From Apostichopus japonicus (Eukaryota > Echinodermata > Holothuroidea > Aspidochirotida > Stichopodidae), in the NCBI RefSeq assembly GCF_037975245.1, contig NC_092568.1:3627001-3691000 (forward strand): 64,000 nucleotides of DNA. Reading direction: 5' to 3'. Made by a program: the position numbers and the translations under genes. Shown in pieces: positions 15,040-46,908 of this stretch. The notes beneath the pieces were generated by a model, which worked only from the letters and a program-made list of their open reading frames with translations, was not told the origin of the DNA and searched no databases. Position 1 is the first letter of the stretch, and each line of letters opens with the position of its first letter.

Positions 15040-15400
15040 GGGGTTCCCAACTGGTTCAACTATGTTTTACTGGGTCCAACTGGTTCAACTATGTTTTACT
15101 GGGTCTAACTGGTTCAAGTTCAACTATGTTTTACTGGGTCCAACTGGTTCAACTATATGTTTACTGGGTCTAACTGGTTCAACTATGTTTTACTGGGTCC
15201 AACTGGTTCAACTATGTTTTACTGGGTCCAACTGGTTCAACTATGTTTTACTGGGTCCAACTGGTTCAACTATGTTTTAATGGGTCAACTATGTTTTACT
15301 GGGTTCAACTGTTTTACTGGGTCAACTATGTTTTACTGGGTTCAACTGGGTGAACTATGTTTTACTGGGTTCAACTGGGTGAACTATGTTTTACTACTTA
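15040..15400. repeat. 29-bp minisatellite (left arm of foldback 2)
   Basis: About twelve copies of a 29-bp unit of the form TTCAACTATGTTTTACTGGG plus TCCAACTGG, degenerating toward 15300-15400 where shorter units occur. It reads open in several frames and so produces spurious ORFs of repeated Tyr/Trp/Gln/Leu and Cys/Phe/Thr/Gly runs. Confidence 0.92.
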
Positions 15401-15894
15401 AATTTTTAAATAGTTTGAACTGGGATTCTCAACTGGTGTTATCTACACTTATATAACACCAGACTATAAGGAGTTTTCATTTTTTAACAGTAGATCTATA
15501 CTGCATGAAAGGGTGTTAGCCACTGAAAATAAATGTTTGTTCTTGATTAGAGAACTCTGGGTTTGGTGTGATGACCAAACACAGAGCAAGACACATAAAA
15601 AATGGAGAACTCAACTGGATTGGATCAAAAGAAATTATAATTATGAATAACAAACAATGTACAGCTGATCTGGGCCCAGTCAAAGAATTAAATGAAACAA
15701 CTTACAGTCGTGAGGTGCGCACCCAAAATATAAAGAAATACACTTAATTTAAAAGTCTGATCTGCAGATCACCATGGTGAGTTGGCCTGCTGGTGACATC
15801 AAGTATTCTACGACCTCAGATCTTCCACGACATCAGATATTCTACGACATCAGTGTAGTTGAACCCAATAAATGGTATTATGAATGTCCGATCC

Positions 15895-16075
15895 CAACAA
15901 AATAGTATCCTTTAATTTATATGAAATAGTGTTCCAGGGTTTCCTTTCAGTAAAATAATGTCAATATCCTTTGTAGTAAAATAATGTCCTTTATAAGTGA
16001 TGGTGTCCTGGAATATCCTTTATTGTAAAATAATATCCTGTCAGTTTGATATCACAACTTCCATAAAATAATAAG
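15895..16075. repeat. Degenerate AT-rich repeat inside foldback 2
   Basis: Several diverged copies of a ~35-bp word containing TAAAATAATGTCCTTT. No coding potential recognised. Confidence 0.55.
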
Positions 16076-17429
16076 GTCTACAGTAACTTGATCTATGTAA
16101 ATTAAGGTTTAAAACAAACTACCCAAACATTAAACTATCTTTCTCTTCTTTTACAACTGCCTTGCTCAGATACTCATAGCCAACTGCCATCTCCCTATAC
16201 CCTCACAAAACTCCTTTGTTCCTAAAATATATACACACAGACCCCATTTCCTGTGAGGGCTAATTTCCAGGAAGAACAAGATAGTTGCCTAGCGACCCAG
16301 AAGAGAGTTGTTAATCAACCCTTTGCTGCCACAAGACAACATACAAATATACTGTACAAATGTATAGCCCTCTGTACAGTGAGCACTGCACAGTGCACTA
16401 ATAAACAAGTAAAACTATGGTACAAAAAACTTTATGAAAGAGCTGACCATCTTACACTGTACAAATAAAGCCTCACTTGAAATTAGATTGATAGTGTAAT
16501 CATATGTTCATAATGTTCAGTGTAGGGCATCCTCACATTTGTAGCATATAAACGTGTATGCTGTACACTTCACTAATGACTTTTGCAAAGTATGTTATTA
16601 TGCCAATAGGACACTTCATGTTTGAAACAACAATCGAGGCAATTGCGTAAATTTTGAAAATTGCTATCATGTTTGCTAGTTGACGATAGCTTTCCTAAAA
16701 TCATGCGGCTAAATATAGGTGTTAACTTGAGTATAACTAGGTTAGGCCCCTATAAGCTAGGCAACTATAACGTTAGGATATGTCTAACGTTAGTAAATGT
16801 ACCATGTGGTATACCTAGTACTGGAACCGGTTTGCTAGGCCTAGCCTATACTATAGTCCTAGGTCAATATATATAAAGTTTCTGTTCAATTCAAATATTT
16901 ATGATAAAGAGCACATTTACAATCAATTATAACGTTACAAGTATGTGTCAATAATATAAAGATACTGCAAGATCACAACGGAGGGTACTGAGCCTCGGTA
17001 ATAATTTAAAATTGTTGGCAAAATCGGTTAAAAATGCGATTATTCTGCGAAGCTTCTGTTGGCGTGTGTGGTTTGCGGATTCGGAATTTATAAATTTAGC
17101 GCTAACGCAAGACAAATGTCAAAGTTCAAATTTAGTCGGATCATACTATATTGCACCAATATTTTGCCTACCAATTGTTCAAATCGACGAACAAAGTATA
17201 ACATAATTTTTTCAAATATATTATATAGTAAATATTTCATATTTTTAATCATTGCGGTACAAAAATGTAATCGTTTAATAATAACTGTGATAAATATGAC
17301 AAAGATTTATTTTACACCCCTCATAAGTTGGCTAATTTAGCATTTTCAATATATTACGATACGGTTACTGCTTACGAACTTACATTATAATATTCTTGAT
17401 AAGTACGCCTAAAATAAAAGCAGTCAACA

Positions 17430-17890
17430 TAGTCCAAACCCAGTTGGGCCAGTGTGAAACCTAGTTCAACCCCAACAGGGCAAGTTCACCAGTAAACATA
17501 GTTCAAACCCAGTTGGGCTTGTGCAAACCAGTGAAACCTAGTTAAACCCCAGCTGGGTCAGTTCACCAGCCAATAGTCCAAACCCAGTTGGGCCAGTGCA
17601 AAACCAGTTGAAACCTAGTTCAACCCCAACAGGGCAAGTTCACCAGTCAACATAGTTCAAACCCAGTTGGGCTAGTGCAAAAACCAGTGAAACCTAGTTG
17701 AAGCCCAACTGGATCAGTTCAAACATAGTTCAAACTCAGTTGAGCCTGAACAAACCCAGTTGAACATTGTGTAAACCCAGTTGAACCTAGCTCATGTACA
17801 GCATAGCCCAGTTGGAACCCAGTAAGACCCAGTTAAACACAGTTAAAAACCAGTTAAACATAGTAGGCCCTAGTAGAACCTAGTTGATTT
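17430..17890. repeat. Diverged minisatellite (right arm of foldback 2)
   Basis: Repeats of CAAACCCAGTTGGGC, AACCTAGTTCAACCCC and related words. The reverse complement resembles the 15040-15400 array. A higher-order period near 140 bp is visible at the left end (similar blocks at 17437 and 17579). Confidence 0.8.
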
Positions 17891-18198
17891 TTTAACTGGG
17901 TTCTACTGGAATTTCTACCAGGTTTACTTCATATACAACTTTCAACGACTAAATTAAATACCTTGATAATAAAGTTTACAAAACGATCGAATATTATGAT
18001 CTTAAAAAAGTGCTTGGAATACTTTAAACTTAGAATTGGTTGGTATAAAGATATTTTGCCATTATTTCCATTCAGTGATAGGTCAAACACATAAGCCACC
18101 ACAATTTGTAAAATTAACTATTTACGAAATAAAACAACCCTTGGTATAATCGTCCCTCAATCCCTTTCCCTAACTGATCTTGCCAATCAAGTTATATA

Positions 18199-21800: not shown

Positions 21801-24800
21801 TATTCAAGAAAATGATTATTAATGCCCAAAATACTAACCATATGGTATTAGATGTAGAAAGTACCCTTTTCTTATCAATTAGCTCGTTTACAAAGACGAT
21901 GCTCTTTCTGAACCAATGAGAGTAAGAGCGGGTTGATTGACTACTAAAATTATTATTCCACAACGACTGACTCAGAATTAATGTGTCATTTTTCCTTTTC
22001 CCCGAGTGAAATTCCCTATTTACAAAAATATTGGGCTGAGGCTAACACATCTTTCCAAAATTCATTCTACTCAAGTTAATTTTCATGCCTATTAACATCA
22101 TTCCCATATACTTAAATATTCAATGTATATTCATAAATAACAGGAAACAAGTCCCTGACTACCGCTTTTTAACGTACGTGCAAAACATGCAACTTTAAGT
22201 GCAACGCAGTGTATGGATACGTCAATCATTCTTAATACCACCTTCAGAATAATCTTGAATAATATAGATTCGACTTTACACGATCTGGTTTCGGTCTCCA
22301 AACAAATCGAAAAATACAAGTTACTAATAAACAACATTTATCTTTAAGTGCAACGCAATGTATAGCTATGTCAATCATTTTTAATACCACCTATCTTGAA
22401 TAATATAGTTTCGACTTCCACGATCTGGTTTCTGTCTCTAAACAAATCGATAAACACAAATAACTAATACAAAATATGTACCTTTAAGTGCAACGCAATG
22501 TATGGCTATGTCAATCATTTTTAATACCACCTTCCAGAATAATCTTGAATAATAAAGTTTCGACTTAAAGGATCTGTTTTTTAACCGTCATACTAGCGAT
22601 GTCAATGTTGAAGGTAATGCCTAGGATGTAAAATCCTCTCCAAAACCCAATAAATATCGTTCAAAAACATTTAAAAACCAGTCAATGTTCCTGCTCCCAC
22701 TAACATGGACTTACTAATATTCATTTTTAAACCTGAAAATTCCACGAAAAAAGTGATTGAGTAAATTGCGAAAACATCGTTCGTTCGCTTCGCCAAAGAA
22801 CCTGGTGTCATCAGCATAAGGAGTCATTTTATATTCTCTTCCACCGATATCAATACCTCGAATGGAATCATCATTGTTTATTAATACATTCAATAGCTGA
22901 GTACATAATTAAAAAATATATGGGGATAGTGGTTCGCCTTGCCGGCATCCTCTTTCAACAGGAAATTATTGTGATGGAAACCATTGACGAGGACAAAAAA
23001 AGGGAGCACAGTTATAAAAAATTTCAAAACATTTAGAGATATGTTTTTGAATCGTTTTAAAAGTATGTTTTCACGTCTATATTTCTAGTGCTGACGACAT
23101 TCGACATGTCATGAAGACGTATGGTGATACTCTACCCACCGAGGATGTTGAAGAAATGCTGAGAGTTGCTGGGGTAGATGGAGATGGAAATATTGATTAC
23201 ATGGGTAATTAATTGATTTTTCTCAATACAAATTAAAATGACTTAAAGGAATATATAGTAGCTAACGTCATGTAAATCGCTTGTAAGTCAACTTGGAGAT
23301 CGCAGTCGGCATCGAAGGTCTACCATCAAGTTGTGAAATCCCTCAAAATAAGGATGAACAATTATCTATATAGTTAACCCAAGTATACACTATCCGGTAT
23401 ATAGCTCCCGAATGTTTTCTTTACTTGAGTGTATTAATATTGCCCTTAAAAGTACAAGTACTGTGAATTATGAAAAAGAATTAACAAATGTGTCTTATAG
23501 TTGCGAGTAAGAACCACGCTACATTTGTACATGGTAAAATAAGATGAAGGACGAAAGATTTAGACTATTAATAGTGTCTAATTACACCCCCATTTTATTT
23601 TGAAGTTACGTCATGAAACTAGAATATATTATTCTTTATCAAATTTCTCACGGACCCCGGGACCCGGATTATAATTCCGGATAATCCAAGAATAACTGCA
23701 TAGGTGAGAAAGGATTAGTATTATTACTCGTTCGAATAAATATTGCAAAATGTTCACAATTATTATGTCCGAGGAGTTTTCTGCTTGCACTTTCGTTTAG
23801 AACCTGATACCACCTGATGTCCAATGAATACATTGCTTATTGATTGAAAAGTAATAATAATAATACGATTCTGATATCTTCATCACACATCAAAAAGCTA
23901 ATTGTAAGTAACAATTAACGATGGTGATTTCGTTGGTACATAAAATTGGATATTTAACAAACTCGCCTACACATGATGAAGTGTTTCATTAGCTTCTACA
24001 TCCCAGTTATTAGTGTGTATTGTGTTCATTTACCACAGATTCTTTCAAGTTCTTTCAAGTCAACAGATCAAACAACATCTTTATATAAAATCGCAATCAG
24101 CTTGCAGTCTGAAACTAAAGACAATCCAAGATTAACTTCCATTAGATCTCGTGATAACTAACAACCGTCCACACCACATTATTGCTTATTCATGGCTAAC
24201 GTTTAAAAAAAATATACGAATATCAGGAAGTGATTCTTGAAACTGATTTATATTTCACAATGCAAACGATACACTGCGTGGTATTGAACTAACGAACTTG
24301 GAAGTTCGTACATGCGCCATATAACCGCAATAAAATGACGGATTTGATTTCCAAGTATTATATAGCAAATGGACTCAAAGGTCAGGTTTATAACACACAG
24401 AATAAGGGACAAGTACCGGATATTTCGAGTACATCATCATTGAGTATTGCCTCCGAAGTTAACAGCCTTCCCAGTTCACTGTGTCAAATAGCACCAGTTA
24501 CATGTCATACGTAAATTACGACTTTAGACATTGCCTACATGTGTTAAATATCCGCAATATAATGACAATTTGATCTCCAAGTATTATATACCCAGCTAAT
24601 ATACTCAGGTTTATAACACACTGCATAGAGCAACCGAATGTGGGACAGACCCGACTCGGCTGGGGACAAACCCGGATATTTGGAATACATCATCGTTGAG
24701 TATTGCGTCCGAAGTTAACAGCCTTCTCAGTTCACTGTGGCATATAGTACCAGCATATCATACGTAAGGAATAACTACAACCGTTGAACCATTCTATACC

Positions 24801-26266
24801 GTTAAATTGCTCATTACAAGTTACAAGACTGCCGTTTTCGTTGAGGAATACAAACTCCAAAGAAGAAACAAAAAGTTAAAAACATTAAGAAGTCATTGAG
24901 GTAAACAAGATGGATACGAACGGAGTTGAAGTTACGATTTTACCCACCGATTCGCCTGGTTACGTTTTTGAAGATCCGACACAAAGAGCACTTTTGTCCG
25001 TTGTAGCGATACTTGTGGCGGCTGTTGGCATTCCTGGGAATATATTGGTTATGATTGCTGTGACTTTTTCGAAAAGATTGCAAACCAAGACCAATTCATT
25101 TGTCGTGAATTTGGCGTGTTCTGATCTTGCTACGTGTCTCGTCCTTCCGTTCCAAGTTGTCGCTTTGTTGAACGATAGTTGGCCGTTGACGGACCCGTTG
25201 TGCACGTTTGTTGCTATTGTTGTCTGGGTTGGTCTTGGTAGCAGCATAGTCAATCTCGCCTTAATCGCATTTAACCGTTTCACGTTAATAACTAAATCTC
25301 GTACTCACTACGACCAACTATATTCAAAGAGATATCTTGTCCTTATGCTAGCTTCAGCATGGATCATTCCGATCGTCCTGGTTACGGTCCCACCCTTGTG
25401 TGGCCTTGGAGGAATCGGCTACTCGGAGAGGTATAAAATATGTTCAGCTGACTCAACCCATCCTTTATCGGATGTTTACGCATTCATCAGCAGTGTTCTC
25501 GTTGAAGTTCCTTGTTTGATCATCATCATCACATGTTACGTCAAAATTTATCGTTTCATTCGAGCTAAAAATCGCGAGCTGTTTTCCAACAACGCGTCTA
25601 GAGGGGAAAACAAGGGCAACGCCCAATCAGCGGCCTTCAAAAGACAAGTGAAAGTGACGAAGAACTTGTTTTTGGTGGTGTGTTCGTATATCATATGTAT
25701 AATGCCCTTTGCTATTGCCTGTTTGATACCACCCAGCTACCCTTCCATTCCTTGGGTGTCGATATTTCTTATTGCTAACTGTTGTGTGAATCCAATCATT
25801 TATGGGCTAAAACATCCTCAGTTTAGAGATGTATTTCGACATATCCTATCGTGCAAGTTTAGACTTATTCCAGAGCCATCGAAGCTATTGCAGAGTCTCA
25901 CCACCAGCTCTACTGGCGCATAACAAGCTCATTGGGTACCGTTTTTCAGAATACGTGACAATTCTTCAATTAATCCACACAGAAGAACTGATTTAGTCGG
26001 AATATCATGTTGGTTTGAGAAAAAGAAAAAGATAAAATGATTGAATAACGCTTTAACCATATAGTACGTTAACTGTTTTCCTAATGATTCACTTGTCCAT
26101 TCCAAACCTTATAATGTTTTTATACCTAGACTACTCATTTTAGCGTTGATTCAAATATTTGGTCGCATTTTTTTTACTATACTTTAGCTTTCAAATATAT
26201 TTTGGATTATTCACTAATATTCACAATATAAATTAAGGTTAAATTAGTTTAATAAATGAATATAAC

Positions 26267-31625: not shown

Positions 31626-31884
31626 TGGCCTTCTATCGGGCTGAAGTTGGCGAACAATAACAGCGACCAATAGCAGCGAACGTTAAGCATTACCAGCGAC
31701 CATTACCAGCGAACAATAAGAGCGAACACTAAGGGGAAAATGATACTACGGAGAAGTTTAAGGGCAATTCGAATGTTACAAGGGGAAAAGTAAAGTTTAA
31801 AAAACTAAACTAATTGACACACTTATTTAACAGAGTGATGGGTGTGTTATCAGACAATAGAAGTTTTCAAATTGTGCAAGTAAT

Positions 31885-34835
31885 AGCTGGCAACCCTCTC
31901 TATCACCCCATCAAAACCACCTTGAGAAAAGATGTCATCAGAGAGGGCGATAATAACGCCAAAACTCGACGCAAAGTCTCATCTACCGTTTATGTACGGG
32001 TTTTCAACACGATTTTTGGCTAACAAATCAAATCTGTAACTCAGTATCACTGGGGTCCCCATGGTAGCTGACGTCACCCTCTATCACCCCATGCTATCAA
32101 ACCTCGGGGGACGGTATCATTTAAGGTGTTATTAACACCCAAACTCGACGCAAAGTCGCATTTACAGTTTATATACGGTTTTTCAACAAGATTTTTGGCT
32201 AACAAATCAAATCTGTAACTCAGTATCATTGGGGACCCCAAAGTAGCTGACATCACCCTCTATCACCCCATGCCATCAAACCTCGGGGGACGGTATCATT
32301 TAAGGTGTTATTAACACCCAAACTCGACGCAAAGTCTCATTAACCGTTTAAATACGGTTTTTCAACACGATTTTTGGCTAACAAATCAAATCTGTAACTC
32401 AGTATCATTGGGGTCCCCAAAGTAGCTGACGTCACCAGCTATCACCCCATGCCAACAAACCTCGGGGGACTGTATCAATTAGGGTGTTATTAACACCCAA
32501 ACTCGACGAAAAGTATCATCTACAGTTTAAATGAGGTTTTTCAACACGATTTTTGGCTAACAAATCAAATCTGTAACTCAGTATCATTGGGGTCCCCATG
32601 ATAGCTGACGTCACCAGCTATCACCCCATACCAACAAACCTCGGGGGACGGTATCATTTAAGGTGTTATTCACACCCAAACTCGACGCAAAGTCTCATTT
32701 ACAGTTTATATACGGTTTTTCAACACGATTTTTGGCTAACAAATCAAATCTGTAACTCAGTATCATTGGGGTCCCCATGGTAGCTGACGTCACCTTCTAT
32801 CACCCCATACCAACAAACCTCGGGGGACGGTATCATTTAGGGTGTTATTCACACCCAAACTCGACGCAAAGTCGCATTTACAGTTTATATACGGTTTTTC
32901 AACACGATTTTTGGCTAACAAATCAAATCTGTAACTCAGTATCATTGGGATCCCCATGGTAGCTGACGTCACCAGCTATCACCCCATAACAACAAACCTC
33001 GGGGGACGGTATCATTTATGGTGTTATTAAGACCCAAACTCGACGCAAAGTCGCATTTACAGTTTATATACGGTTTTTCAACACGATTTTTGGCTAACAA
33101 ATCAAATCTGTAACTCAGTATCATTGGGGTCCCCAAAGTAGCTGACGTCACCATCTATCACCTCATACCATTAAACCTCGGGGGACGGTATCATTTAAGG
33201 TGTTATTAACACCCAAACTCGACGCAAAGTCGAATTTACAGTTTAAATGAGGTTTTTCAACACGATTTTTGGCTAACAAATCAAATCTGTAACTCAGTAT
33301 CATTGGAGTCCCCATGGTAGCTGACGTCACCAGCTATCACCCCATACCAACAAACCTCGGGGGACGGTATCATTTAGGGTGTTATTAACACCCAAACTCG
33401 ACGCAAAGTCTCATTTACAGTTTATATACGGTTTTTCAACACGATTTTTGGCTAACAAATCAAATCTGTAACTCAGTATCATTGGGGTCCCCATGGTAGC
33501 TGACGTCACCTTCTATCACCCCATACCAACAAACCTCGGGGGACGGTATCATTTATGGTGTTATTAACACCCAAACTCGACGCAAAGTCGCATTTACAGT
33601 TTATATACGGTTTTTCAACACGATTTTTGGCTAACAAATCAAATCTGTAACTCAGTATCATTGGGGTCCCCAAAGTAGCTGACGTCACCATCTATCACCT
33701 CATACCATTAAACCTCGGGGGACGGTATCATTTAAGGTGTTATTAACACCCAAACTCGACGCAAAGTCGCATTTACAGTTTACATACGGTTTTTCAACAC
33801 GATTTTTGGCTAACAAATCAAATCTGTAACTCAGTATCATTGGGGTCCCCATGGTAGCTGACGTCACCAGCTATCACCCCATACCAACAAACCTCGGGGG
33901 ACGGTATCATTTATGGTGTTATTAACACCCAAACTCGACGCAAAGTCGCATTTACAGTTTATATACGGTTTTTCAACACGATTTTTGGCTAACAAATCAA
34001 ATCTGTAACTCAGTATCATTGGGGTCCCCAAAGTAGCTGACGTCACCATCTATCACCTCATACCATTAAACCTCGGGGGACGGTATCATTTAAGGTGTTA
34101 TTAACACCCAAACTCGACGCAAAGTCGCATTTACAGTTTACATACGATTTTTCAACACGATTTTTGGCTAACAAATCAAATCTGTAACTCAGTATCATTG
34201 GGGTCCCCATGGTAGCTGACGTCACCTTCTATCACCCCATACCAACAAACCTCGGGGGACGGTATCATTTATGGTGTTATTAACACTCAAACTGGACGAA
34301 AAGTATCATCTACAGTTTAAATGAGGTTTTTCAACACGATTTTTGGCTAACAAATCAAATCTGTACTCAGTATCATTGGGGTCCCCATGGTAGCTGACGT
34401 CACCAGCTATCACCCCATACCAACAAACCTCGGGGGACGGTATCATTTAAGGTGTTATTAACACCCAAACTCGACGAAAAGTCTCATTTACAGTTTATAT
34501 ACGGTTTTTCAACACGATTTTTGGCTAACAAATCAAATCTGTAACTCAGTATCATTGGGGTCCCCATGGTAGCTGACGTCACCCTCTATCACCCCATACC
34601 AACAAACCTCGGGGGACGGTATCATTTATGGTGTTATTAACACCCAAACTCGACGCAAAGTCGCATTTACAGTTTATATACGGTTTTTCAACACGATTTT
34701 TGGCTATCAAATCAAATCTGTAACTCAGTATCATTGGGGAGCAAAAACGTAGCTGACGTCACCCTCTACCACCCCTTACCAACAAACCTCGGGGGACGGT
34801 ATCATTTAGGGTGTTATTAACACCTAAACTCGACG
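31885..34835 (+). repeat. 179-bp satellite array, left arm (~16.5 copies)
   Basis: Unit length 179 bp, read from equal spacing of matching ORF starts (32598 and 32777) and of the CTCGGGGGACGGTATCATTT word. Each unit carries GGTGTTATTAACACC (7-bp inverted repeat), GGGGTCCCC and a TGACGTCA octamer (intact in about 15 of 16). Outer units are more diverged than central ones. Higher-order structure shows as a variant (CATCTATCACCTCATACCATT) recurring at 3- and 2-unit spacing. ORFs of 60-61 codons across it are repeat by-products. Confidence 0.97.
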
Positions 34836-37082
34836 CAAGCTATCCGATTTATATTCAGTGTAGAGAGAATGTGTCTCACATTATAGAAAGAAGAGAAATT
34901 AATTGAGAAAGCCGTAAATTAAAATGAAGCTATTAGGAAAGCTATGATTTTTTTTACGGAATACCGTTTATTATATACAAAGATACATAAGTAAACTTAA
35001 AATGACCCTACTCATATAGTATCGTTGAAATGAAATAACAAGAAACTTCCCCGATCAGTATATCCGGACCAATTCGGAATAGATTGTAGTGTCAGTGTAC
35101 AGTCACATTTCACCGTATTACAAGAGTTAGTCAAAATATAGTTAATATGTCTCCAATTTATGCATGTAGGCACCATCAGGATTTGAAAAATTTTCAAAAG
35201 GGGAGGGGGACACCCCCTCCCTTTATACCCCTCCCCCAGGGCGCGGATCACTGTCACAAATTACCCGGCTCTAAAAATGGTCTGGTGACAACCCTGGTAC
35301 TGATCACCCATATAGGAGAAGCATTTTGAGTGTGTTCACATAATTAACCCAGATGACCTCTGTATAACCTTTGGCATAAACTTACTAAACACCCATATGA
35401 CCCACTACTCAAGGACACTATGATCAAGTTTGGTCATCTTTCATTGATGTGTACACATGCTCTAACTTCACTGGAATGAAAATTTAAAAAATAGCTCTTT
35501 CGACTTTTAACTATTGGTGTATCATTTAGAGAGACCTGAATCCAGGTCAACAAAACGTACCTACACAATTCTGTGTAATCAACAACCGATGAAACCTCAA
35601 GTTTTTTGTTTCAGTCACTATTGGTTTAATCCGTACTATACCGTTAACCAACTCCTTTAAAGGGCATAATCAACAGGCATGCAGTTACCTAAATCTTGTT
35701 TTCTATCGTCGGCTAAATTCTTCAATCTCCTTTTATGTTCCAACAAAGGTACCCTCGTGATGTTTCAGAAGACATATATTGGATATGAAGGGATCAACTT
35801 GTATTTTATAAGTTACAAACGTCATATAATGAACAAAGGGTGTATGCGTGTTCCCTTTAAAGTGCACTCAACCAATGATAATGTTTCTCTGCCACAGATC
35901 TAGCACCTGCTGAATACAGATCTGATAAGATACACTGACCATCAAAAATACAAAAGCAGGAGCACTAATTCAATTAGTACAATTGTATCCATGCATGATA
36001 AGGCTATTTATCCCAGGTTGTGATGATCACTCTTGTTCCATGTTCTGAAGTTGCCCTTCATGAATTTTGAATATGTATTAACCAGGTAACAACGCCAGGG
36101 TTCTCGCCAGTCCGATTTAACCGGGCGGGGCTCCAGGTTTGAATTTGATTTTGGCTCTCGCCGATCGGTTCGAAAGTTGTGCGCCCTAGCTGTTTGAAAG
36201 TTGGGTGCCTGGTTTTATAGCTGTTATAAATAATCAACGTTAGCAAGTACTACTGAAACATTTTGACCTTTTTTAATGTGAATAAAACCATCGACTAAAT
36301 ATTCACACTTTTCAGTTCACTCTTCCTATTCCCAACTGCAACCAGGGCAAATAACACATTCCAGGTATCACGTAAGCGCTTCAGTATAGTGATATCGTGA
36401 CACAAACGATCCCTGCTTTTACACAGCAAAAGGTTGCGAACGAAGTTTGTGTTTTCTGGGTACTGAGAGATGCCAGAATGTTTGTATTTAAACATCGTAC
36501 ATAACCTAAACCAGGGCAGGAAAAAAATGAAGTCACAACTGAATCACCGTGACACACACAAAAAATAAATAGTCATTCAGTTTATGTAGCAGTTTATGTA
36601 ATGTTGACTCTAGTCAATGGTCAGCTGACTATTTTTCTTTATACTGTAGAGTATAACTAACAGCAATGTCCAGGTTATTGCCATACATTTGAAAATTTAA
36701 GAAATCATAGCTTTGTAAAGTAGCGCGAATTTCAAGTGGCTTGGCTGCTGGAAGAATCACCAAGACAAGTTTATTTTGTCTTTATTATTCGGCAGTCATG
36801 TATAACTCTAAGTTATTGAAAAATATTTGAGCATTTATAAATCATAGCTCGAAAATGTCAATTTCAAGCAGTTTGCCTACTTAGAAAAGGCGAAAATCGC
36901 GGAGCTTCCGGGGGCTTAGCCCCTTGGACCCACACAACGAACTTTGCCCCTTGACCACACGCCGAGAGTGCGATCGCTACGCTACGCGATCGCGCGGATA
37001 CCTTTGGCATCCGAATTGATCATCGGCACTTGAGACCACCCGGTTTGACAAAAAAGCGGGCGAGATCCTGCAGCTTTTTAAT
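34836..37082. other. Central spacer of foldback 1
   Basis: Single-copy-looking DNA between the inverted arrays. It includes a G/C-rich partly palindromic stretch (35195-35240) and a GC-rich patch with GCGATCGC palindromes (36890-37015). No gene recognised. Confidence 0.7.
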
Positions 37083-39405
37083 TTTAATGACAAATTCCAA
37101 AAGTAAGATTGATTTGTAAGCCAAAAACTGTGTTGAAAAACCGTATACTAACGGTAGATGAGACTCTGCCTCGAGTTTGGGTGTTAACACCCTAAATGAT
37201 ACCGTCCCCCGATTTTTGTTGGCATGGGGTAATAGAGGGTAACGTCAGCTACTTTGGGGACCCCAATGATACTGAGTTACAGATTTGATTTGTTAGCCAA
37301 AAATCGTGTTGAAAAACCGTATATAAACTGTAAATGCGACTTTTCGTCGAGTTTGGGTGTGAATAACACCATAAATGATACCGTCCCCCGAGGTTTGTTG
37401 GTATGGGGTGATAGCTGGTGACGTCAGCTACCATGGGGACCCCAATGATACTGAGTTACAGATTTGATTTGTTAGCCAAAAATCGTGTTGAAAACACGTA
37501 TATAAACTTTAAATGAGACTTTGCGTCGAGTTTGGGTGTTAATAACACCTTGAATGATACCGTCCCCCGAGGTTTGTTGGTATGGGGTGATAGAGGGTGT
37601 CGTCAGCTACCATGGGGACCCCAATGATACTGAGTTACAGATTTGATTTGTTAGCCAAAAATCGTGTTGAATAACCGTATATAAACTGTAAATGGGACTT
37701 TGCGTCGAGTTTGGGTGTTAATAACACCATAAATGATACCGTCCCCCGAGGTTTGTTGGTATGGGGTGATAGCTGGTGACGTCAGCTACCATGGGGACCC
37801 CAATGATACTGAGTTACAGATTTGATTTGTTAGCCAAAAATCGTGTTGAAAACACGTATATAAACTTTAAATGAGACTTTGCGTCGAGTTTGGGTGTTAA
37901 TAACACCTTAAATGATACCGTCCCCCGAGGTTTGTTGGTATGGGGTGATAGAGGGTGTCGTCAGCTACCATGGGGACCCCAATGATACTGAGTTACAGAT
38001 TTGATTTGTTAGCCAAAAATCGTGTTGAATAACCGTATATAAACTGTAAATGGGACTTTGCGTCGAGTTTGGGTGTTAATAACACCATAAATGATACCGT
38101 CCCCCGAGGTTTGATGGTATGGGGTGATAGCTGGTGACGTCAGCTACCATGGGGACCCCAATGATACTGAGTTACAGATTTGATTTGTTAGCCAAAAATC
38201 GTGTTGAAAAACCTCATTTAAACTGTAGATGATACTTTTCGTCGAGTTTGGGTGTGAATAACACCATAAATGATACCGTCCCCCGAGGTTTGTTGGCATG
38301 GGGTGATAGCTGGTGACGTCAGCTACCATGGGGACCCCAATGATACTGAGTTACAGATTTGATTTGTTAGCCAAAAATCGTGTTGAAAACACGTATATAA
38401 ACTTTAAATGAGACTTTGCGTCGAGTTTGGGTGTTAATAACACCTTAAATGATACCGTCCCCCGAGGTTTGTTGGTATGGGGTGATAGAGGGTGTCGTCA
38501 GCTACCATGGGGACCCCAATGATACTGAGTTACAGATTTGATTTGTTAGCCAAAAATCGTGTTGAATAACCGTATATAAACTGTAAATGCGACTTTGCGT
38601 CGAGTTTGGGTGTTAATAACACCATAAATGATACCGTCCCCCGAGGTTTGTTGGTATGGGGTGATAGCTGGTGACGTCAGCTACCATGGGGACCCCAATG
38701 ATACTGAGTTACAGATTTGATTTGTTAGCCAAAAATCGTGTTGAAAAAACGTATATAAACGTTAAATGCGACTTTGCGTCGAGTTTGGGTGTAAATAACA
38801 CCATAAATGATACCGTCCCCCGAGGTTTGTTGGTATGGGGTGATAGAGGGTGACGTCAGCTACCATGGGGACCCCAATGATACTGAGTTACAGATTTGAT
38901 TTGTTAGCCAAAAATCGTGTTGAAAAACCGTATATAAACTGTAAATGCGACTTTGCGTCGAGTTTGGGTGTTAATAACACCATAAATGATACCGTCCCCC
39001 GAGGTTTGTTGGCATGGGGTGATAGCTGGTGACGTCAGCTACCATGGGGACCCCAATGATACTGAGTTACAGATTTGATTTGTTAGCCAAAAATCGTGTT
39101 GAAAAACCGTATTTAAACTGTAAATGCGACTTTGCGTCGAGTTTGGGTGTTAATAACACCCTAAATGATACCGTCCCCCGAGGTTTGTTGGTATAGGGTG
39201 ATAGCTGGTGACGTCAGCTACGTTTTTGTTCCCCAATGATACTGAGTTACAGATTTGATTTGTTTGCCAGATGTGGTTTTGAATAACAGTATATATATGC
39301 TACGTTTTACTTGCAGTTGCCGAGTTAGTTGTTAATAACCCCCTGCCCGACATCGTCCCTCACGGTTGTTGACATACTTTGGTAGAGTGTAATGTCAGCT
39401 TTAAC
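37083..39405 (-). repeat. 179-bp satellite array, right arm (~13 copies, inverted)
   Basis: Reverse complement of the left-arm satellite. A dimeric higher-order repeat (358 bp) is visible: units with GAAAACACGTATATAAAC alternate with units with GAATAACCGTATATAAAC at 37440-38140 and again near 38340-38580. Units of the first type carry TGTCGTCA where others have TGACGTCA. The outermost unit (39240-39405) is strongly diverged. Confidence 0.97.
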
Positions 39406-39894
39406 GTTCACCCCACCCTTCTTCATGTTTCCCATTAAGCTTTGTTTCCAAATATATTATCTTTTACCCTAAACTTACGCTTTTCGCTGATATTCGGGGC
39501 AGGTCTGATATTTTAAGAGCTAAAATTTTGCTTTACCACGATAATGAGTTAGGCCATACCCTGACTTTGGGGATATTTTATACCCCGTTCCATAATTACG
39601 AGTTTGTCGGGTTTGAATCTCTTATAATAAATTATTTAATGCATGGAACGTCCAAAAGCCTGTCTTTCCCTCCTAATTGCAATCGATTGAAAGCATTCGA
39701 ACATTCAATTTGCTTTAAACACATCATTTTTGCCACATGGCCCATTACGAAGGCCACTACACAACTCCGTAGTATCATTTGCACTTTCTAGCATTTTTTG
39801 GTCGCCCTTATTGGTCGCTCTTATTGTTCGCTACTATTGGTCGCTCTTATTGTTCGCCAACTTCAGCCAGATTGGCCTTCTGAGCCCACAATCG

Positions 39895-40205
39895 TACACA
39901 CGGAGAGAGCGTTGTGGTCAAGTGATTAAGGCAGTGGACTTGTAATCTAAGGTTTGCAGGTTCGAGTCCTAGCCAGATCATTGTGTCCTTGTGCAAGGCA
40001 CTTTATCTGCCTAGTCTCTCTTCACCCGGGTGTACAATTACGGACCTGTTATATAAATTGTCAGTTGGGCGCTGTTTAGCTGCTGCCGTGTTGATATTGT
40101 TTCTAAATGATGTTTGACAGATTATAGCTTACCAGGGTATATTGCGATGCTAGCGGTTAGCGAACTATGCTTTATAAATGTAATGTTATTATTAATTGAT
40201 TTTTC
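39895..40205 (+). mobile_element. tRNA-derived SINE, deuterostome type
   Basis: Starts just outside the foldback target duplication. A box A-like TGGTCAAGTGATTAAGG and box B-like GGTTCGAGTCC form a tRNA-related head (about 39905-39982). The core GTGCAAGGCACTTTAT and CTCTCTTCACCC follows, then a 3' part ending with TATAAATG and an AT-rich tail. The core is a sequence I know from many invertebrate deuterostome SINEs. No cloverleaf acceptor stem is seen, so it is not a tRNA gene. Confidence 0.85.
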
Positions 40206-40569: not shown

Positions 40570-40577
40570 AATATATA

Positions 40578-40608
<31 letters not shown>

Positions 40609-40698
40609 GATATAATATGATATGATATGATATGATATATGATATATGATATGATATGATATGATATATATGATCCAGAGTAATATATATATATATAT
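40570..40698. repeat. (TA)n / (GATAT)n microsatellite
   Basis: TA tract passing into repeats of GATAT/TATGA, then TA again, abutting the transposon at 40699. Confidence 0.9.
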
Positions 40699-41941
40699 CA
40701 GGCTTGGGGCGATTACATCTGAATGTAATCGATTACGATTACGATTACTTGAGAATGTATGATTACAATTACGATTACGATTACAGCCTAAAGTTGAAGT
40801 AATCGATTACGATTACGATTACATTGTAATGTAATCGTGATTACAATCATGATTACATTGTGGTTATACTTGCACAATCCTCTGCATATCTGTTTAATAT
40901 AACTCTCTGCCGGGAAATAGGGCAATGAAATAGGGCAAAGGAAGGGCATTTACAGTATATACAGACAAAATTGTGGAAGTATATCTACAATTCCTACCAG
41001 GCATTACACATTTATGCCTTAACACGTTTAAGATGTGTTACCCATAAGCCCAGTAAAAAATACAATTTAAACAGACAAAGAGTAAACAGACAAATACTAA
41101 AGTAAAACAAATGAAGATTTTCATGCAACACTATATATTTTGTAAACTTATAATTTCTGCATAGCAGCAAAACTAAAAACTCTTTTACATTATAACACCA
41201 AAATAAAACTAAACAGCTTTGAAATGGGGCATTCCAATGATTCCACAGTACAAGGGACATGGAAGGCCAAAGTAAAAGTAAATTATTTTCATCAAAAAGT
41301 GGTCAACTCTGGTAATGAGAACAATAGACTGACATAAATAGCAATGTGCTTTCAATAGCTGCTACACCTGAGCCTTGTGGCCCACTAGACATGGCAAATG
41401 GAATTATTTATCAAATTTACTTACTTAAATGAATTTAAAGGGTGTATTTTGTCAGCCTGACTGTAATTGTTTGTTAAGTGTTTAATATACTAATGAAATA
41501 TTTTTCTATAATCAGCACACCATGTCAACTTATGTCAACCAGTTGTGTATGCAAAAGGATTGTGAACGCTGAGAGGCAGCATTGAACAGAATAATTCAGG
41601 TGATAAAAAATCCTTGAATATGGTGATCAAATCCCCAGTGCTTCTTAGTGTAAGTTTATTGTGTTAGAGAATTCTAGAAGCAGGACCACTTCTTTGGTCA
41701 CACTAAAAGCCAATAGTAAGATTTAGTTTTAATCATTTCTACTAATTTTGCCCTTCTCATTCAAATTTCACTGTAATCATAAATGTAATACGATTACGAT
41801 TACTTTGCCCTTGTAATCGATTACGATTACGATTACTTTGTAATTTTCACAAAAGTAATCGATTACGATTACGATTACTTCAATAAATGTAATCGATTGT
41901 AATCGATTACGATTACTGATTACGATTACCCCAAGCCTGAT
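40699..41941. mobile_element. Non-autonomous DNA transposon with GATTAC-array TIRs (hAT-like)
   Basis: Left end TCAGGCTTGGGGCGATTAC and right end its inverted counterpart (CCCCAAGCCTGA). Both ends carry ~150 bp of GATTAC/GTAATC hexamer arrays in mirror arrangement (40720-40860 and 41770-41930). The CAGGC-type terminus resembles hAT elements. The flanks are (TA)n on both sides, so the target duplication cannot be read. The ~900-bp centre has no transposase; the 82-codon minus-strand frame at 41012-41260 is not convincing. Confidence 0.82.
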
Positions 41942-41966
41942 ATATATATGTATATATATATATTTA

Positions 41967-41992
<26 letters not shown>
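41942..41992. repeat. (TA)n microsatellite
   Basis: TA tract after the GATTAC element, ending in a T-run. Confidence 0.9.
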
Positions 41993-41997
<5 letters not shown>

Positions 41998-42956
41998 TCG
42001 CTGTTACTGAAAAAACAACAACATGCAAACCAAAAACGAATATAGAGCTACAGGGCCAGATCGGCGACTTTGGGAGTGTAGTGCATGTTACACTGATTGC
42101 GTTCAATAGTACAATCAGGGAGCTGAACTCCCTGGTACAATGTAATGATTTGCATCGCCTTTAGCTTTTGAACTTTTTGGGATTCTATACCATCTAGCGA
42201 CGTCAAGGTTTAACATCACCCGATCTGAACAAGGTCAATTTTCTGAACAAAGAATGAATCACGTTTACATTGTTTACCGATATCCAAGTGTTCTGTTTAA
42301 CGAAACTCAAACGTCTAGGTATAGGTAAATATTTGAACATGATCCATTTGTTTTGAATCAATAAAAATGAAAATTTATCCATTGAGGAATCCCATATCAG
42401 AGAAATTATGACGTCATTGCGAATTTAAAAGTCCTGGTGCTGCCCCGAACAGCTCTTTTGATTGTGTGCAAGAAATTGAGAATATAACAGTTGTCTGCGA
42501 TATTACCAAGACGGGACAAGTCGTTCATAATTGGTACTTGTCGAAAGGTCATATTACGATTGAGTGTATACCGTGAAGTGTGCAACACCTAACAAGTTTA
42601 TGGTTGCATGGTTCACTGGTGATTTCTTTTGCTGTCATATAAATACAATTACAACCATAGTGTTTTCTGAATTGAGTTCCAAGTTCCAAAGAAATTGTGT
42701 TACACGGAAGTAGCAACAGTACAATTTTGTGCTACCAATCGTAGTAGGAATGCACTTGTTCCACACAATAACCAAATCTGAGTGACAACAAGGAAACTGA
42801 AATTTCAGGCGGTTGATGATACCAATGAAGTATTGGTTACGTGGTTTCACTAATAACTCACTTATTTTGAAAAAAAAACTATATATTACATAGACATAAA
42901 CTCAATTTAAACGAGTCGCAATATCTATCGTCCGAATTATCAAATCTCTGTGAAAC

Positions 42957-43964
42957 ATGACAAGCTCGGAAGTTGCGATGGCACCTACAGATTCGCCTGG
43001 GTATGTTTTTGAAGATCTATTACAAAGAACGGTCCTCGCGGTAGTTGTTGCTTTGGTCGCGGCGATTGGTATTCCCGGTAATGTGCTGGTAATGGTCGCC
43101 GTTGCCTCCTCCAGAAGGCTTCAAACCAAGACCAATGTATTTGTCGTGAATTTGGCGTGTTCTGATCTTACTACGTGCCTCGTCCTCCCGTTCCAAGTTG
43201 TCGCTTTGTTGAACGATAGTTTGCCATTGCCAGACCCTTTGTGCACGTTGGTTGCTGTTGTTTTCTGGGTTGGTCTTGGTAGCAGCATAGTCAACCTCGC
43301 CTTAATCGCCTTTAACCGTTTCACATTAATAACTAAATCTCGTACTCACTACGACCAAGTATATTCAAAGAGAAATCTTGTCCTTATGTTAGTTTCAGCA
43401 TGGATCATTCCGATCGTCCTGGTTACGGTCCCACCCTTGTGTGGCCTTGGAGGAATCGGCTACTCGGAGAGATATAAGATATGTTCAGCTGACTCAACCC
43501 ATCCTTTATCGGATGTTTACGCATTCATCAGCAGTGTTCTCGTTGAAGTTCCTTGTTTGATCATTATCATTACATGTTACGTCAAAATTTATCGATTCAT
43601 TCGAGCTAAAAACCGAGAGCTATTTCCAAACAACGCGTCTAGAGGGGAAAGCAAGGGCAACGCCCAATCAGCGGCCTTCAAAAGACAAGTGAAAGTGACA
43701 AAGAACTTGTTTTTGGTGGTATGTTCGTATATCATATGTATAATGCCCTTTGCTATTGCCTGTTTGATACCACCCAGCTACCCTTCCATTCCTTGGGTGT
43801 TGATATTTCTTATTGCTAACTGTTGTGTGAATCCAATCATTTATGGGCTAAAACATCCTCAGTTTCGAGATGTATTTCGAAATATCCTATCGTGCAAGTT
43901 TAGACTTATTCCAGAGCCATCGAAGCTATTGCAGAGTCTCACCACCAGCTCTACTGGCGCATAA
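42957..43964 (+). CDS. Rhodopsin-class (class A) 7TM GPCR, copy 3 (mosaic)
   Basis: 335 residues, intronless, with the same 7TM landmarks (GN, LACSD, FNRF, CIMP, NPIIY). Residues 1 to about 55 differ from copies 1 and 2 at many positions ([41 protein letters not shown]). From the QTKTN motif onward the DNA is nearly identical to copy 2, with some positions matching copy 1 (SKRNLVLMLVSAW). In the last 160 residues only about four changes from copy 2 are seen. The upstream flank is unrelated to that of copies 1 and 2, while the 3' flank matches copy 2 up to the (TA)n at 44316. This looks like a receptor whose 3' part was replaced by conversion or by a partial duplication. The frame is intact and presumed functional. 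Confidence 0.94.
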   Translation: MTSSEVAMAPTDSPGYVFEDLLQRTVLAVVVALVAAIGIPGNVLVMVAVASSRRLQTKTNVFVVNLACSDLTTCLVLPFQVVALLNDSLPLPDPLCTLVAVVFWVGLGSSIVNLALIAFNRFTLITKSRTHYDQVYSKRNLVLMLVSAWIIPIVLVTVPPLCGLGGIGYSERYKICSADSTHPLSDVYAFISSVLVEVPCLIIIITCYVKIYRFIRAKNRELFPNNASRGESKGNAQSAAFKRQVKVTKNLFLVVCSYIICIMPFAIACLIPPSYPSIPWVLIFLIANCCVNPIIYGLKHPQFRDVFRNILSCKFRLIPEPSKLLQSLTTSSTGA

Positions 43965-44382: not shown

Positions 44383-46908
44383 CTTAGCCAGCAAATTGAT
44401 TCCAAAACCAGAAAACTGCAAAAAGAACTCCCCAAGAACGAGTTCGAAAGAAAGCTTGACTCCATTACCAAAATTTGCTTGAACCTCTCACATACCCTAG
44501 CTTCAAGACAATGTCACAAATTGAAGAGGGATAATGTCACGCAAAGAGTTAAGTCTTCTGGTGAAACCCAACTTGAAACCTCAAAAAGAACCAGGTCTCG
44601 CAGATTCCGTCGGAAAGAGATACAGACCGCATGCAACACCACCAAAAGTGCAGTTGTTACCATTGATTGCCAATTCTCGGCAGGAGAAACAAACCTACTC
44701 TCCAAAGGTCTAAATTTTTGCCCTAAACCACGGCAAGTAAACGCTCAGAAACTTTCTCTTGACCTAAATCTGTTCTATCGACGCTTACGTCTCCGTGAAT
44801 TTTTTGCCGACGAAAATGGCAATAACACCACGCAAGAAACCAACGACTTGCATTCCAATTTTAAGCCAAAAAGCTCGTGGAATCCACCCAAGGCCCATTG
44901 TGCGCCTCTTGAATCATTTATTTCGGCCATTGAAGAGGATGTCAAAACACACACCTCCGCCCCAGACTTCCGCGACAATCTCAACAAAACTGAGAGACAG
45001 GCCATTCATGAACTGCGGAAGCGCGATGACATTGTCATCAAGCCAGCCGACAAGGGTTCTGCAATTGTCGCTATGGGCAAACAATTCTACAGAGAGGAAG
45101 CCAACAGACTACTCAGCAACCCTCAACACTACAAACTCCTGGATTCTGATCCAACTCAAGAAATCACACAAAACGTGAAAAGAGTCATCCAAAAGATAGT
45201 CTCTAACGGTTCCATTGACCGCAAGTTAGGCCAAAACCTCCTGGAAAATGACCCAAAACCTGGTCGCTTTTATTTTCTGCCTAAAATTCACAAAGAAGGC
45301 AATCCCGGGAGGCCCATAATATCGGGTAATGGCACAGCGACTGAAAAAATTTCCAAATTCGTGGATCTCCTCATCCAACCTCTCGTTTCGGCCCTACCGT
45401 CCTATGTGCAGGACACTACGGATTTCATCCGGAAAATTGGGGAAATAAAAAATCTTCCCTTATCTTCTCTGTTAGTTACCTTGGATGTGTCTTCGTTATA
45501 CACAAATATCCCCAACGAAGAGGGCATTTCGGCCTGCACAAAAGCATTCAAACCGATACGTGGCAAAACCCCCACGAAGAAAGAATTGGCCGAATTAATG
45601 CAACTTATCTTGACCAACAATAATCTGGTATTTGGCAACAAACACTACCTCCAAATTCATGGCACCGCAATGGGTACCAAAATGGCACCGTCTTTTGCCA
45701 ACATCTTTATGGGAAACCTCGAGAAAGAATTTTTGTCTCGACAAAACTTGAAACCACACACGTGGTTACGTTACATTGACGATATCTTTATGATATGGAC
45801 CCATGGTGAGGCTAATCTAAAACTCTTCATTGATGACATAAACTCGTTTCATCACACTATCAAATTCACTGCTGATTTTTCTGGACATGGCGTTCACTTT
45901 CTGGACACCACCGTGACCCTACAAAATGGTTCACTCAAAACAGACTTGTTCAATAAACCTACGAACAAGCACAACTACCTCTTACCAAGCAGTTGCCATC
46001 CACGTCACTGTACCAGAAATATTCCGTACAGTCAAGCGTTGCGCATTCGACGCATTTGCTCCTCTGAAGTCGATTTTGATTCACGCACTAAAGAACTGTC
46101 ACAACACCTCCTAAACAGACAGTATTTTCGGGGTACTATTGAAAATGCCATCAAAAAGGCTAAAAGCAAACCCCGTACCGAAACATTGACGTACAAAACT
46201 CGTCCAACCAGTTCCAAAAGGGTACCATTGGTTACTGAATTCCACCCTGGTCTCCCACCACTGGCTAATATCATTCAGAAGAATTTTCACCTACTTCAAG
46301 GCACCGAACGCCTGAAATCAGTATTCCCAGAATTACCTGTCATCGCTTTTAAAAGACCCAGCAACCTACGGGATATCTTAGTTCGGGCATCCTTTCGGGA
46401 TGACACCCCATTAGGGGAAAGCAAAACAGAAACTACAGGATCATCGCCCTGTACACAAAATTGCAAAACGTGCTTACTTGTCGATTCGACCGGGGCCTTT
46501 CAGAGCAACCAAACCAAACGCACGTTCCAAATTCGGCACAAAATTAACTGCCTATCCAAAAATGTCATTTACCTCATCTACTGCAATATTTGTAACTTAC
46601 AATACATTGGAGAGTCAAAAAACACTCTTAGAATGAGAATGACACAACATAGATCGGCGATCAAAACAAAAAAGATCTACCAACCTGTTGCAAATCACTT
46701 CAATCTCCAAAATCATTCAATTGAGAATTTGCGTGTTATTGCCATTGACCAGAACGATTCTTGGACAGATAAATCTAGGAAAGCGAAAGAAAATTTCTGG
46801 GAACTAAACCTAAAGACCACGGCACCATTCGGTTTAAACATCAGAAACGATTTGCCGTCCCAGATAAACCAAAACAATTCCTTTACAATTACGACGGAAT
46901 CGGATTAA
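44383..46908 (+). CDS. Penelope-like reverse transcriptase with GIY-YIG endonuclease
   Basis: One open frame from the (TA)n junction to the stop before 46909. No ATG lies near the start, so the N terminus is missing. Counting from the TTG at 44479 gives 809 residues. The RT domain shows FYFLPKIHK, motif A TLDVSSLYTNIP (catalytic Asp near 336), motif B HGTAMGTKMAPSFANIFMG and motif C RYIDDIFMIW (YIDD near 432-435). A cysteine cluster (CTQNCKTC) precedes the endonuclease domain, which reads VIYLIYC then LQYIGES (YIG near 709-711), with Arg/His-rich helices and ENFWE downstream. This is the Penelope-like architecture: target nicking by GIY-YIG, priming of reverse transcription at the nick. No frameshift or stop is seen, suggesting recent insertion. 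Confidence 0.94.
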   Translation, partial: LSQQIDSKTRKLQKELPKNEFERKLDSITKICLNLSHTLASRQCHKLKRDNVTQRVKSSGETQLETSKRTRSRRFRRKEIQTACNTTKSAVVTIDCQFSAGETNLLSKGLNFCPKPRQVNAQKLSLDLNLFYRRLRLREFFADENGNNTTQETNDLHSNFKPKSSWNPPKAHCAPLESFISAIEEDVKTHTSAPDFRDNLNKTERQAIHELRKRDDIVIKPADKGSAIVAMGKQFYREEANRLLSNPQHYKLLDSDPTQEITQNVKRVIQKIVSNGSIDRKLGQNLLENDPKPGRFYFLPKIHKEGNPGRPIISGNGTATEKISKFVDLLIQPLVSALPSYVQDTTDFIRKIGEIKNLPLSSLLVTLDVSSLYTNIPNEEGISACTKAFKPIRGKTPTKKELAELMQLILTNNNLVFGNKHYLQIHGTAMGTKMAPSFANIFMGNLEKEFLSRQNLKPHTWLRYIDDIFMIWTHGEANLKLFIDDINSFHHTIKFTADFSGHGVHFLDTTVTLQNGSLKTDLFNKPTNKHNYLLPSSCHPRHCTRNIPYSQALRIRRICSSEVDFDSRTKELSQHLLNRQYFRGTIENAIKKAKSKPRTETLTYKTRPTSSKRVPLVTEFHPGLPPLANIIQKNFHLLQGTERLKSVFPELPVIAFKRPSNLRDILVRASFRDDTPLGESKTETTGSSPCTQNCKTCLLVDSTGAFQSNQTKRTFQIRHKINCLSKNVIYLIYCNICNLQYIGESKNTLRMRMTQHRSAIKTKKIYQPVANHFNLQNHSIENLRVIAIDQNDSWTDKSRKAKENFWELNLKTTAPFGLNIRNDLPSQINQNNSFTITTESD

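Follow-up and report, generated by a model that had tools for sequence, protein, structure and literature searches.

A unit of 8,238 bp, at positions 31635-39872 of the 64-kb sea cucumber sequence analyzed here (the window), is best explained, with a probability of roughly three in four, as one non-autonomous foldback transposon, most likely mobilized by Mutator/IS256-type enzymes, with satellite arrays that grew in the element's own lineage and with one copy seen. How satellites originate and disperse is an open question, and the evidence tying them to transposons often consists of fragments. The present insertion is structurally complete, with its duplication, both ends, the subrepeats, and the long opposed arrays in one piece. 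It provides a test case for homogenization of satellites by pairing of arms and for their dispersal by a transposon, and this large non-coding example may help to explain how satellite DNA is built up and distributed by transposons.

Boundaries and Terminal Repeats

The unit is directly flanked on both sides by a perfect 9-bp direct repeat, TGGCCTTCT, which occurs exactly twice in the 64-kb window and whose reverse complement is absent from it. The features of the insertion are as follows.

31626..31634, no strand: left target-site duplication TGGCCTTCT, one of two window occurrences
31635..31753, plus strand: left terminal inverted repeat (TIR), begins ATCGGGCTGAAGTTGGCGAAC, aligned to the reverse complement of 39765-39872
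31650..31734, plus strand: left-end 13-bp subrepeats, a putative transposase-binding array (TRF period 13 and strict motif)
31885..34838, plus strand: left array of the 179-bp satellite, ~16.5 units (TRF, alignments)
34839..37108, no strand: central spacer, 2,270 bp, no recognized coding sequence (ORF list and Pfam scan)
37109..39402, minus strand: right satellite array, inverted, ~12.8 units (TRF, alignments)
39403..39764, no strand: 362-bp subterminal segment on the right, without a clear match on the left
39765..39872, minus strand: right TIR, reverse complement begins ATCTGGCTGAAGTTGGCGAAC (pairwise and lenient alignment)
39798..39857, minus strand: right-end 13-bp subrepeats (TRF period 13 and strict motif)
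39873..39881, no strand: right target-site duplication TGGCCTTCT, the other window occurrence

The element terminates in ATCKGGCTGAAGTTGGCG ends. Inverted alignment of the left TIR (119 bp) with the right (108 bp) gives 75.6% identity over 119 columns, with E 5.1e-21 in the pairwise comparison and E 5.1e-17 in a self-search of the window. The two ends diverge by ~24% overall, with matches at 25 of the 26 and 48 of the 53 outermost bases, and a lenient alignment indicates that weak similarity may extend inward from the left TIR. An earlier note on this DNA had proposed both the flanking 9-bp repeat and the inverted ends that it abuts, and both are borne out by these comparisons.

The window was also scanned for inverted 14-bp ends with at most two mismatches, no more than 20 kb apart, and with at least two G/C per end, leaving out pairs with both ends inside the satellite arrays. 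Of 2,973 such pairs, exactly two are abutted by a direct repeat of 8-11 bp containing two or more G/C, the foldback element (9 bp) and 8574-9521 (8 bp). In a control in which the right flank was displaced, 38 offsets combined produced two overlapping hits, both in the 17.5-kb minisatellite.

Subrepeats are present at both ends, as had been claimed, with a period that TRF places at 13 bp and not at the ~12 bp first given. The strict motif GCGA[AC]CA[AT]TA is found in the 64 kb four times at the left end (starts 31650, 31663, 31696, and 31709), four times at the right end (39857, 39844, 39831, and 39818), and once elsewhere, at 43099 inside a GPCR gene. The window has many sites for the loose core GCGA[AC]C, 15 on each strand; the left end holds 6 of the 15 plus-strand sites and the right end 5 of the 15 minus-strand sites.

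Opposed Satellite Arrays and the Segments between Them

The two arrays hold ~16.5 and ~12.8 units in opposite orientation around the 2,270-bp spacer, close to the ~16.5 and ~13 copies and the 2.2-kb spacer described in the earlier note. All 27 matches to a 26-bp word of the satellite (15 left and 12 right) fall inside the arrays, with 0 expected. The arms are complementary at 94% over up to 2,049 bp and, including the outer domain, extend about 3.2 kb on the left and 2.8 kb on the right; RNA from the unit could in principle fold into a kilobase hairpin, as had been suggested. These long inverted repeats are built mostly of tandem repeats (opposed 13-bp and 179-bp arrays), the structure that typifies Foldback elements, and together with the 9-bp duplication and the inverted ends they uphold the claim of a single mobile unit of foldback design.

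The outermost unit of each array is decayed, with 83% identity to the consensus on the left and 72% on the right, and the innermost left unit is cut off; decayed edge units are the pattern expected if arrays are renewed from inside. The arrays start at nearly equal unit phase on their outer sides (31884 versus 39400, ~3 of 179 bp apart in a post hoc comparison) and at differing phases at their inner boundaries, 34838 and 37109. The segments between TIR and array measure about 131 bp on the left and 362 bp on the right and have no clear similarity.

The longest open frames of the spacer are 82 aa, and a 128-aa frame (39405-39791) lies mostly inside the right subterminal segment. To look for a MULE-domain transposase, 11 of the 38 listed frames were scanned against Pfam, comprising 10 of the 14 listed spacer frames of at least 50 aa and the 128-aa frame. 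The latter matched no family and the spacer frames none above the cut-off, their single sub-threshold hit being YoaP (E 0.16), and no transposase remnant was recognized in the frames scanned. Two open frames of the satellite returned no candidates from a protein collection, and DNA patterns of the element had 0 matches in viral contigs and prokaryote genomes, non-eukaryotic sets in which a copy is not expected. Two roles for the monomer were considered and rejected. Its RNA folds with a z of -1.36, equaled in 21 of 200 shuffles, which does not suggest a structured RNA, and its longest invariant run, 15 bp, is matched in 4,197 of 10,000 permutations, which does not suggest a core constrained as a binding site.

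Variation within and between the Arms

Identity tests and trees used 26 core monomers, leaving out the unit at 31885-32063 and L16, R01, and R13, which are decayed or cut edge units. Monomer identity is 94.78% within arms versus 94.70% between arms (permutation p 0.31). The monomer tree includes a clade that crosses the arms (L03/L13/R07, support 100/98) as well as clades private to the left arm (L07/L10/L12, 99/95) and to the right (R06/R09/R11, 98/90), and each arm carries private duplicated dimers with 99.2-99.4% identity. Constraining the left arm as one clade is rejected (p-AU 0.00055), and with it the idea of arms as two wholly separate clades; labels are nonetheless more clustered than in shuffles, with 5 changes on the tree where shuffled labels average 8.6, and 5 or fewer reached by only 6 (L) or 4 (R) shuffles out of 500. 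As the monomers are not cleanly sorted by arm and the ~99% dimers are private, variants are shared between arms while short blocks have been amplified locally; because arm labels still cluster on the tree, exchange between arms, if any, is incomplete or old. A palindrome in mirror register, with unit k pairing unit k, is rejected, as none of the offsets tested stands out (93.3-96.2%).

The private dimers suggest that amplification took place within the lineage of the element. The earlier note had left capture, spread by the transposon, and amplification within it side by side; of these, the dimers favor the last. An origin of the satellite from the TIR, as proposed for Tetris (discussed below), is not supported, since the best local scores of the 179-bp monomer against the two TIR regions and the spacer, on either strand, fall among those obtained from 60 single-base shuffles. 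No stretch common to the repeat and the outer TIR domain was found, and a Tetris-like birth of the satellite was rejected; capture may be its source.

How the Element May Have Formed and Moved

The structure suggests a route by which such an element might arise. Mobilization would be in trans, most likely by a Mutator/IS256-type (MULE, perhaps Phantom-like) transposase that recognizes the ~110-bp ends and duplicates 9 bp of target, with the 13-bp repeats probably serving as multiple binding sites for it. The arrays would enlarge and homogenize within the lineage by unequal exchange inside an arm and probably by exchange between arms paired as a hairpin or cruciform, which could account for the shared variants. 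The whole unit, arrays included, would then have inserted at its present site, although the arrays may have grown at another time or along another path than outlined here.

A different history, possible but distinctly less probable than even odds, is that two pieces of one genomic satellite pool entered a foldback element, with the likeness of the arms reflecting a genome-wide pool rather than exchange. The dissimilarity of the monomer to TIR and spacer, the different phases of the inner boundaries, and the variants common to both arms all speak for such a capture, but the 99% dimers private to one arm are not readily explained by it, and independent capture would produce the near-equal outer phases by chance in only ~4% of cases (7 phases out of 179, a post hoc estimate). 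Far more improbable is that there is no single transposon at all, the unit being either two opposed arrays beside a fortuitous short repeat or an assembly artifact of inverted duplication. Misassembly is frequent in satellite regions, and the evidence comes from one assembly window. Yet the arms are 94% rather than 100% complementary, differ in copy number, private variants, and subterminal segments, and are bounded by ends that the 9-bp repeat exactly abuts, an arrangement that the displaced-flank controls reproduced only in the minisatellite.

The class of the transposase is a separate issue, as duplication length by itself does not fix a superfamily. Helitrons and Helentrons with satellite arrays are not known to have a target-site duplication or a long TIR, and this origin was rejected because both the 9-bp duplication and the ~110-bp TIRs are present. 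It is unlikely, though conceivable, that the foldback belongs to another group, whether P/Galileo-like, hAT-like, Merlin-like, or Rehavkus, a MULE outgroup, as long, internally repeated TIRs occur in unrelated superfamilies. P and hAT duplications are usually 7-8 bp, which counts against those groups here; Merlin duplications are 8-9 bp, and both Merlin and Rehavkus stay compatible with 9 bp. Galileo has a P-type transposase (PMC3688188), and Rehavkus is tabulated with 9-bp duplications, TIRs of 26-400 bp, and a minisatellite (PMC6446971). The exact 9-bp duplication and symmetrical ends nevertheless suit MULEs, for which the latter paper gives 8-11 bp, a range that includes the Mutator-like length previously claimed.

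Relation to Known Foldback Elements

The insertion adds a satellite-armed example to an already known foldback design. The TU elements of sea urchin, for which the Tetris paper (PMC4079207) cites Lieberman 1983, are reportedly echinoderm foldbacks with long inverted repeats, tandem ~15-bp repeats in the outer domain, and 8-bp duplications, versus 9 bp in the sea cucumber element; they are not known to have arms made of 179-bp satellite. Foldback (FB) of Drosophila and Galileo are likewise similar in structure, with long, internally repetitive inverted arms. Galileo differs in its P-type transposase, and tandem repeats in its TIRs hold extra transposase-binding sites, as far as the available text describes (PMC3688188). 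The earlier note named TU and FB as the nearest designs; the closest published ones found here are Tetris and, for the short terminal subrepeats, Tm1 (PMC4079207 and PMC3169594).

The likeness to Tetris, of Drosophila virilis and americana (Dias et al. 2014, PMC4079207), is one of structure, by description. In the portions of that account available, Tetris is a foldback whose inverted repeats consist of a flanking domain on the outside and tandem ~220-bp repeats inward of it, with a non-coding middle and 8-10-bp duplications. Its authors place it in Mutator, propose a TIR origin for the repeat, and also describe satellite arrays of the repeats with as many as 66 copies. The allelic pair of complete Tetris copies has three or four left-arm repeats, against ~16.5 and ~12.8 units here, and its TIRs reach 1,735 bp, against arms of about 3.2 and 2.8 kb. 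Its repeats share 37 bp (~80%) with the flanking domain, whereas no such likeness was found in the sea cucumber element, and short terminal subrepeats, present here, are not described in those portions.

Tm1, a Mutator/Foldback family of root-knot nematodes (PMC3169594), offers a different parallel. According to the sections available, its TIRs consist of 13-15-bp tandem repeats, unequal in number at the two ends, and duplications of 8-10 bp, mostly the 9 bp seen here, are given for 45 of 53. Non-coding copies occur alongside one encoding a Phantom-like transposase. A purine-rich motif follows its subrepeats, to which GGGGAAAA at 31733 bears a weak resemblance. Tm1 differs in terminal sequence, no satellite arrays are described in those sections, and the two elements for which they give a length measure 1,080 and 2,593 bp.

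With this insertion, a Tetris-like architecture is also seen in an echinoderm, a member of the same phylum as the sea urchin hosts of TU. A broader proposal, offered tentatively, is that an intact mobile foldback may carry satellite-scale arrays for its arms; hairpin exchange and local dimer amplification would reshape them, and each transposition would seed an inverted satellite pair at a new site, in this case between genes, making the family both carrier and generator of host satellite.

Genomic Neighborhood

The foldback element sits between GPCR genes in a tandem GPCR region. The product of a neighboring GPCR gene has 90% identity to Apostichopus japonicus, in keeping with a holothurian host. 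Among the best 80 matches of the window's self-comparison, none represents a further copy of the element and none spans the insertion site, as a paralogous empty site in the GPCR region would. Elsewhere in the window, 8574-9521 is a small, unrelated candidate with inverted ends and an 8-bp direct repeat, and a second repeat-armed foldback likely lies at 14.9-17.9 kb.

Structure and Insertion of the Element

As far as one copy allows, the element has the structure that defines a foldback transposon, and it works like one. Its coordinates and copy counts, proposed in an earlier note, were upheld by mapping of the arrays and ends:

31626-31634 and 39873-39881, 9-bp target-site duplication TGGCCTTCT, with no other occurrence in the window
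31635-31753 and 39765-39872, terminal inverted repeats (TIRs) just inside the duplication, left ATCGGGCTGAAGTTGGCGAACAATAA and right, in reverse complement, ATCTGGCTGAAGTTGGCGAACAATAA
31885-34838 and 37109-39402, satellite arrays of period 179 in opposite orientation
Between the arrays, a spacer of 2,270 bp

In pairwise alignment the two inverted ends are 75.6% similar over 119 columns, with 25 of 26 bases matching at the very ends of the element and perhaps weak traces of similarity further inward. The ~12-bp subrepeats described earlier are indeed present in the ends, with a measured period of 13 bp. Matches to a strict motif of these units, GCGA[AC]CA[AT]TA, number four per end and one elsewhere in the 64 kb (within a GPCR gene); the looser core GCGA[AC]C recurs often across the window.

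A window-wide scan for direct repeats abutting inverted 14-bp ends covered 2,973 end pairs, AT-simple pairs and pairs inside arrays being excluded. A non-simple repeat of 8-11 bp abuts two of these, the element (9 bp) and one other (8 bp), and 38 controls with displaced right flanks gave two overlapping hits in total, both in a minisatellite at 17.5 kb. Taken with the 25/26 end match, this result makes single insertion of one unit by far the simplest reading. The other pair looks like a separate short transposon, for which a hAT-like identity is a guess from duplication length:

8574-9521 (8566-9529 with duplications), small transposon candidate of 948 bp, both ends starting CATAGGCGTACG, 8-bp duplication GTTGTGGT

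Evolution of the Satellite Arms

Among 26 core monomers (15 left, 11 right), identity is 94.78% within arms versus 94.70% between arms (permutation p 0.31), and the monomer tree rejects the left arm as a single clade (p-AU 0.00055). In this tree L03/L13/R07 form a variant type common to both arms (support 100/98), and other clades are private to one arm (L07/L10/L12, 99/95; R06/R09/R11, 98/90). Arm labels are clustered, with 5 changes against a shuffled mean of 8.6 (a count this low arose in 6 or 4 of 500 shuffles), as near-copies within an arm would produce; within-arm dimers reach 99.2-99.4% identity. The arms have accordingly shared variants, through exchange or through descent from a common array, after which short blocks multiplied separately in each arm. 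Units at the array edges have decayed: the outermost are 83% and 72% identical to consensus, the next units inward 95% and 98%. The TIRs are now ~76% similar whereas the arrays are still near 95%, the pattern that concerted evolution would give.

The outer array boundaries lie at nearly equal phase and the inner ones at different phases; the former, noticed after the fact, is a mild hint that both arms came from one inverted ancestor. Tetris, the published transposon closest in design for satellite-like repeats inside TIRs, has repeats with 37 bp in common with its own flanking domain (PMC4079207), whereas the consensus 179-bp monomer has no detectable similarity to the TIRs or spacer of the element. 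A seed repeat may have been captured before amplification.

For a 700 x 700-nt arm duplex the predicted energy is -1206.7 kcal/mol, and a transcript of the element could form a hairpin. piRNAs have been reported from transposon-derived tandem repeats of a D. virilis Helitron (PMC12910113).

Proposed Mobilization and Relatives

No Pfam family scored above cut-off in 11 scanned frames (10 of the 14 spacer frames of at least 50 aa and a 128-aa subterminal frame). With no recognisable coding sequence, the element would have had to be mobilised in trans, by an enzyme encoded elsewhere. Its 9-bp duplication falls inside the 8-11 bp listed for Mutator-like elements (PMC6446971). Tm1, which carries a Phantom-type transposase, has TIR subrepeats of ~14 bp and mostly 9-bp duplications (PMC3169594), and the TIR tandem repeats of Galileo hold extra transposase-binding sites (PMC3688188); by analogy with both, the 13-bp units probably serve as such sites. 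A Mutator-like class for the transposase is inferred; a less likely candidate is Rehavkus, for which a minisatellite and 9-bp duplications are given (PMC6446971).

The short terminal subrepeats thus likened to Tm1 are combined here with Tetris-like repeats, and the satellite arms are unusually long. Patterns of the element had no hits in viral or prokaryote DNA collections, which say nothing about a repeat of eukaryotes, and two reading frames of the satellite matched nothing in a protein collection. Among the literature matches listed, from a search with most subscription journals outside it, no paper describes a sea cucumber foldback element.

Surroundings in the Window

Three genes of one type occur in the window, the second to the left of the element and the third to its right:

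3952-4974, 24889-25923, and 42954-43964, rhodopsin-type GPCR genes in duplicated surroundings

Against P0001 of A. japonicus the three copies show 89-92% identity, and the blocks around them, among those listed, are ~76-96% identical. The third (coding region 42957-43961; Pfam 7tm_1) has top A. japonicus matches at 90% and 84%, with Holothuria leucospilota lower at 57-58%, which places the host among sea cucumbers close to Apostichopus. Each copy of a large duplicated block carries a 151/140-bp tandem repeat (1439-1816 and 22181-22543). A tRNA-derived SINE-like sequence, identified by eye (39905-40070; no RNA family match), starts ~25 bp beyond the right duplication and is followed at 40571-41989 by a CGATTA/TGTAATCGATTAC repeat cluster with AT microsatellites, partly inverted. 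An 841-aa open frame at 44383-46908 has reverse transcriptase and GIY-YIG domains and so is a Penelope-like element, which may be intact.

A second foldback-like element is probable at 14944-17920. Its ends, TGGTGGAAATTCCAATTGAAC and GTTCTACTGGAATTTCTACCA, are complementary at 18 of 21 positions, and its arms are opposed AACTGGGTTCAACTATG-type minisatellites with an inverted-arm score of 75 versus 42 on the same strand (scores of 200 single-base shuffles averaged 19 and reached at most 30). Repeat-armed foldbacks may recur in the A. japonicus genome. A possible imperfect 9-bp duplication, GTTTATTTC/GTTTACTTC (8/9 by eye), lies 1-2 bp from these ends.
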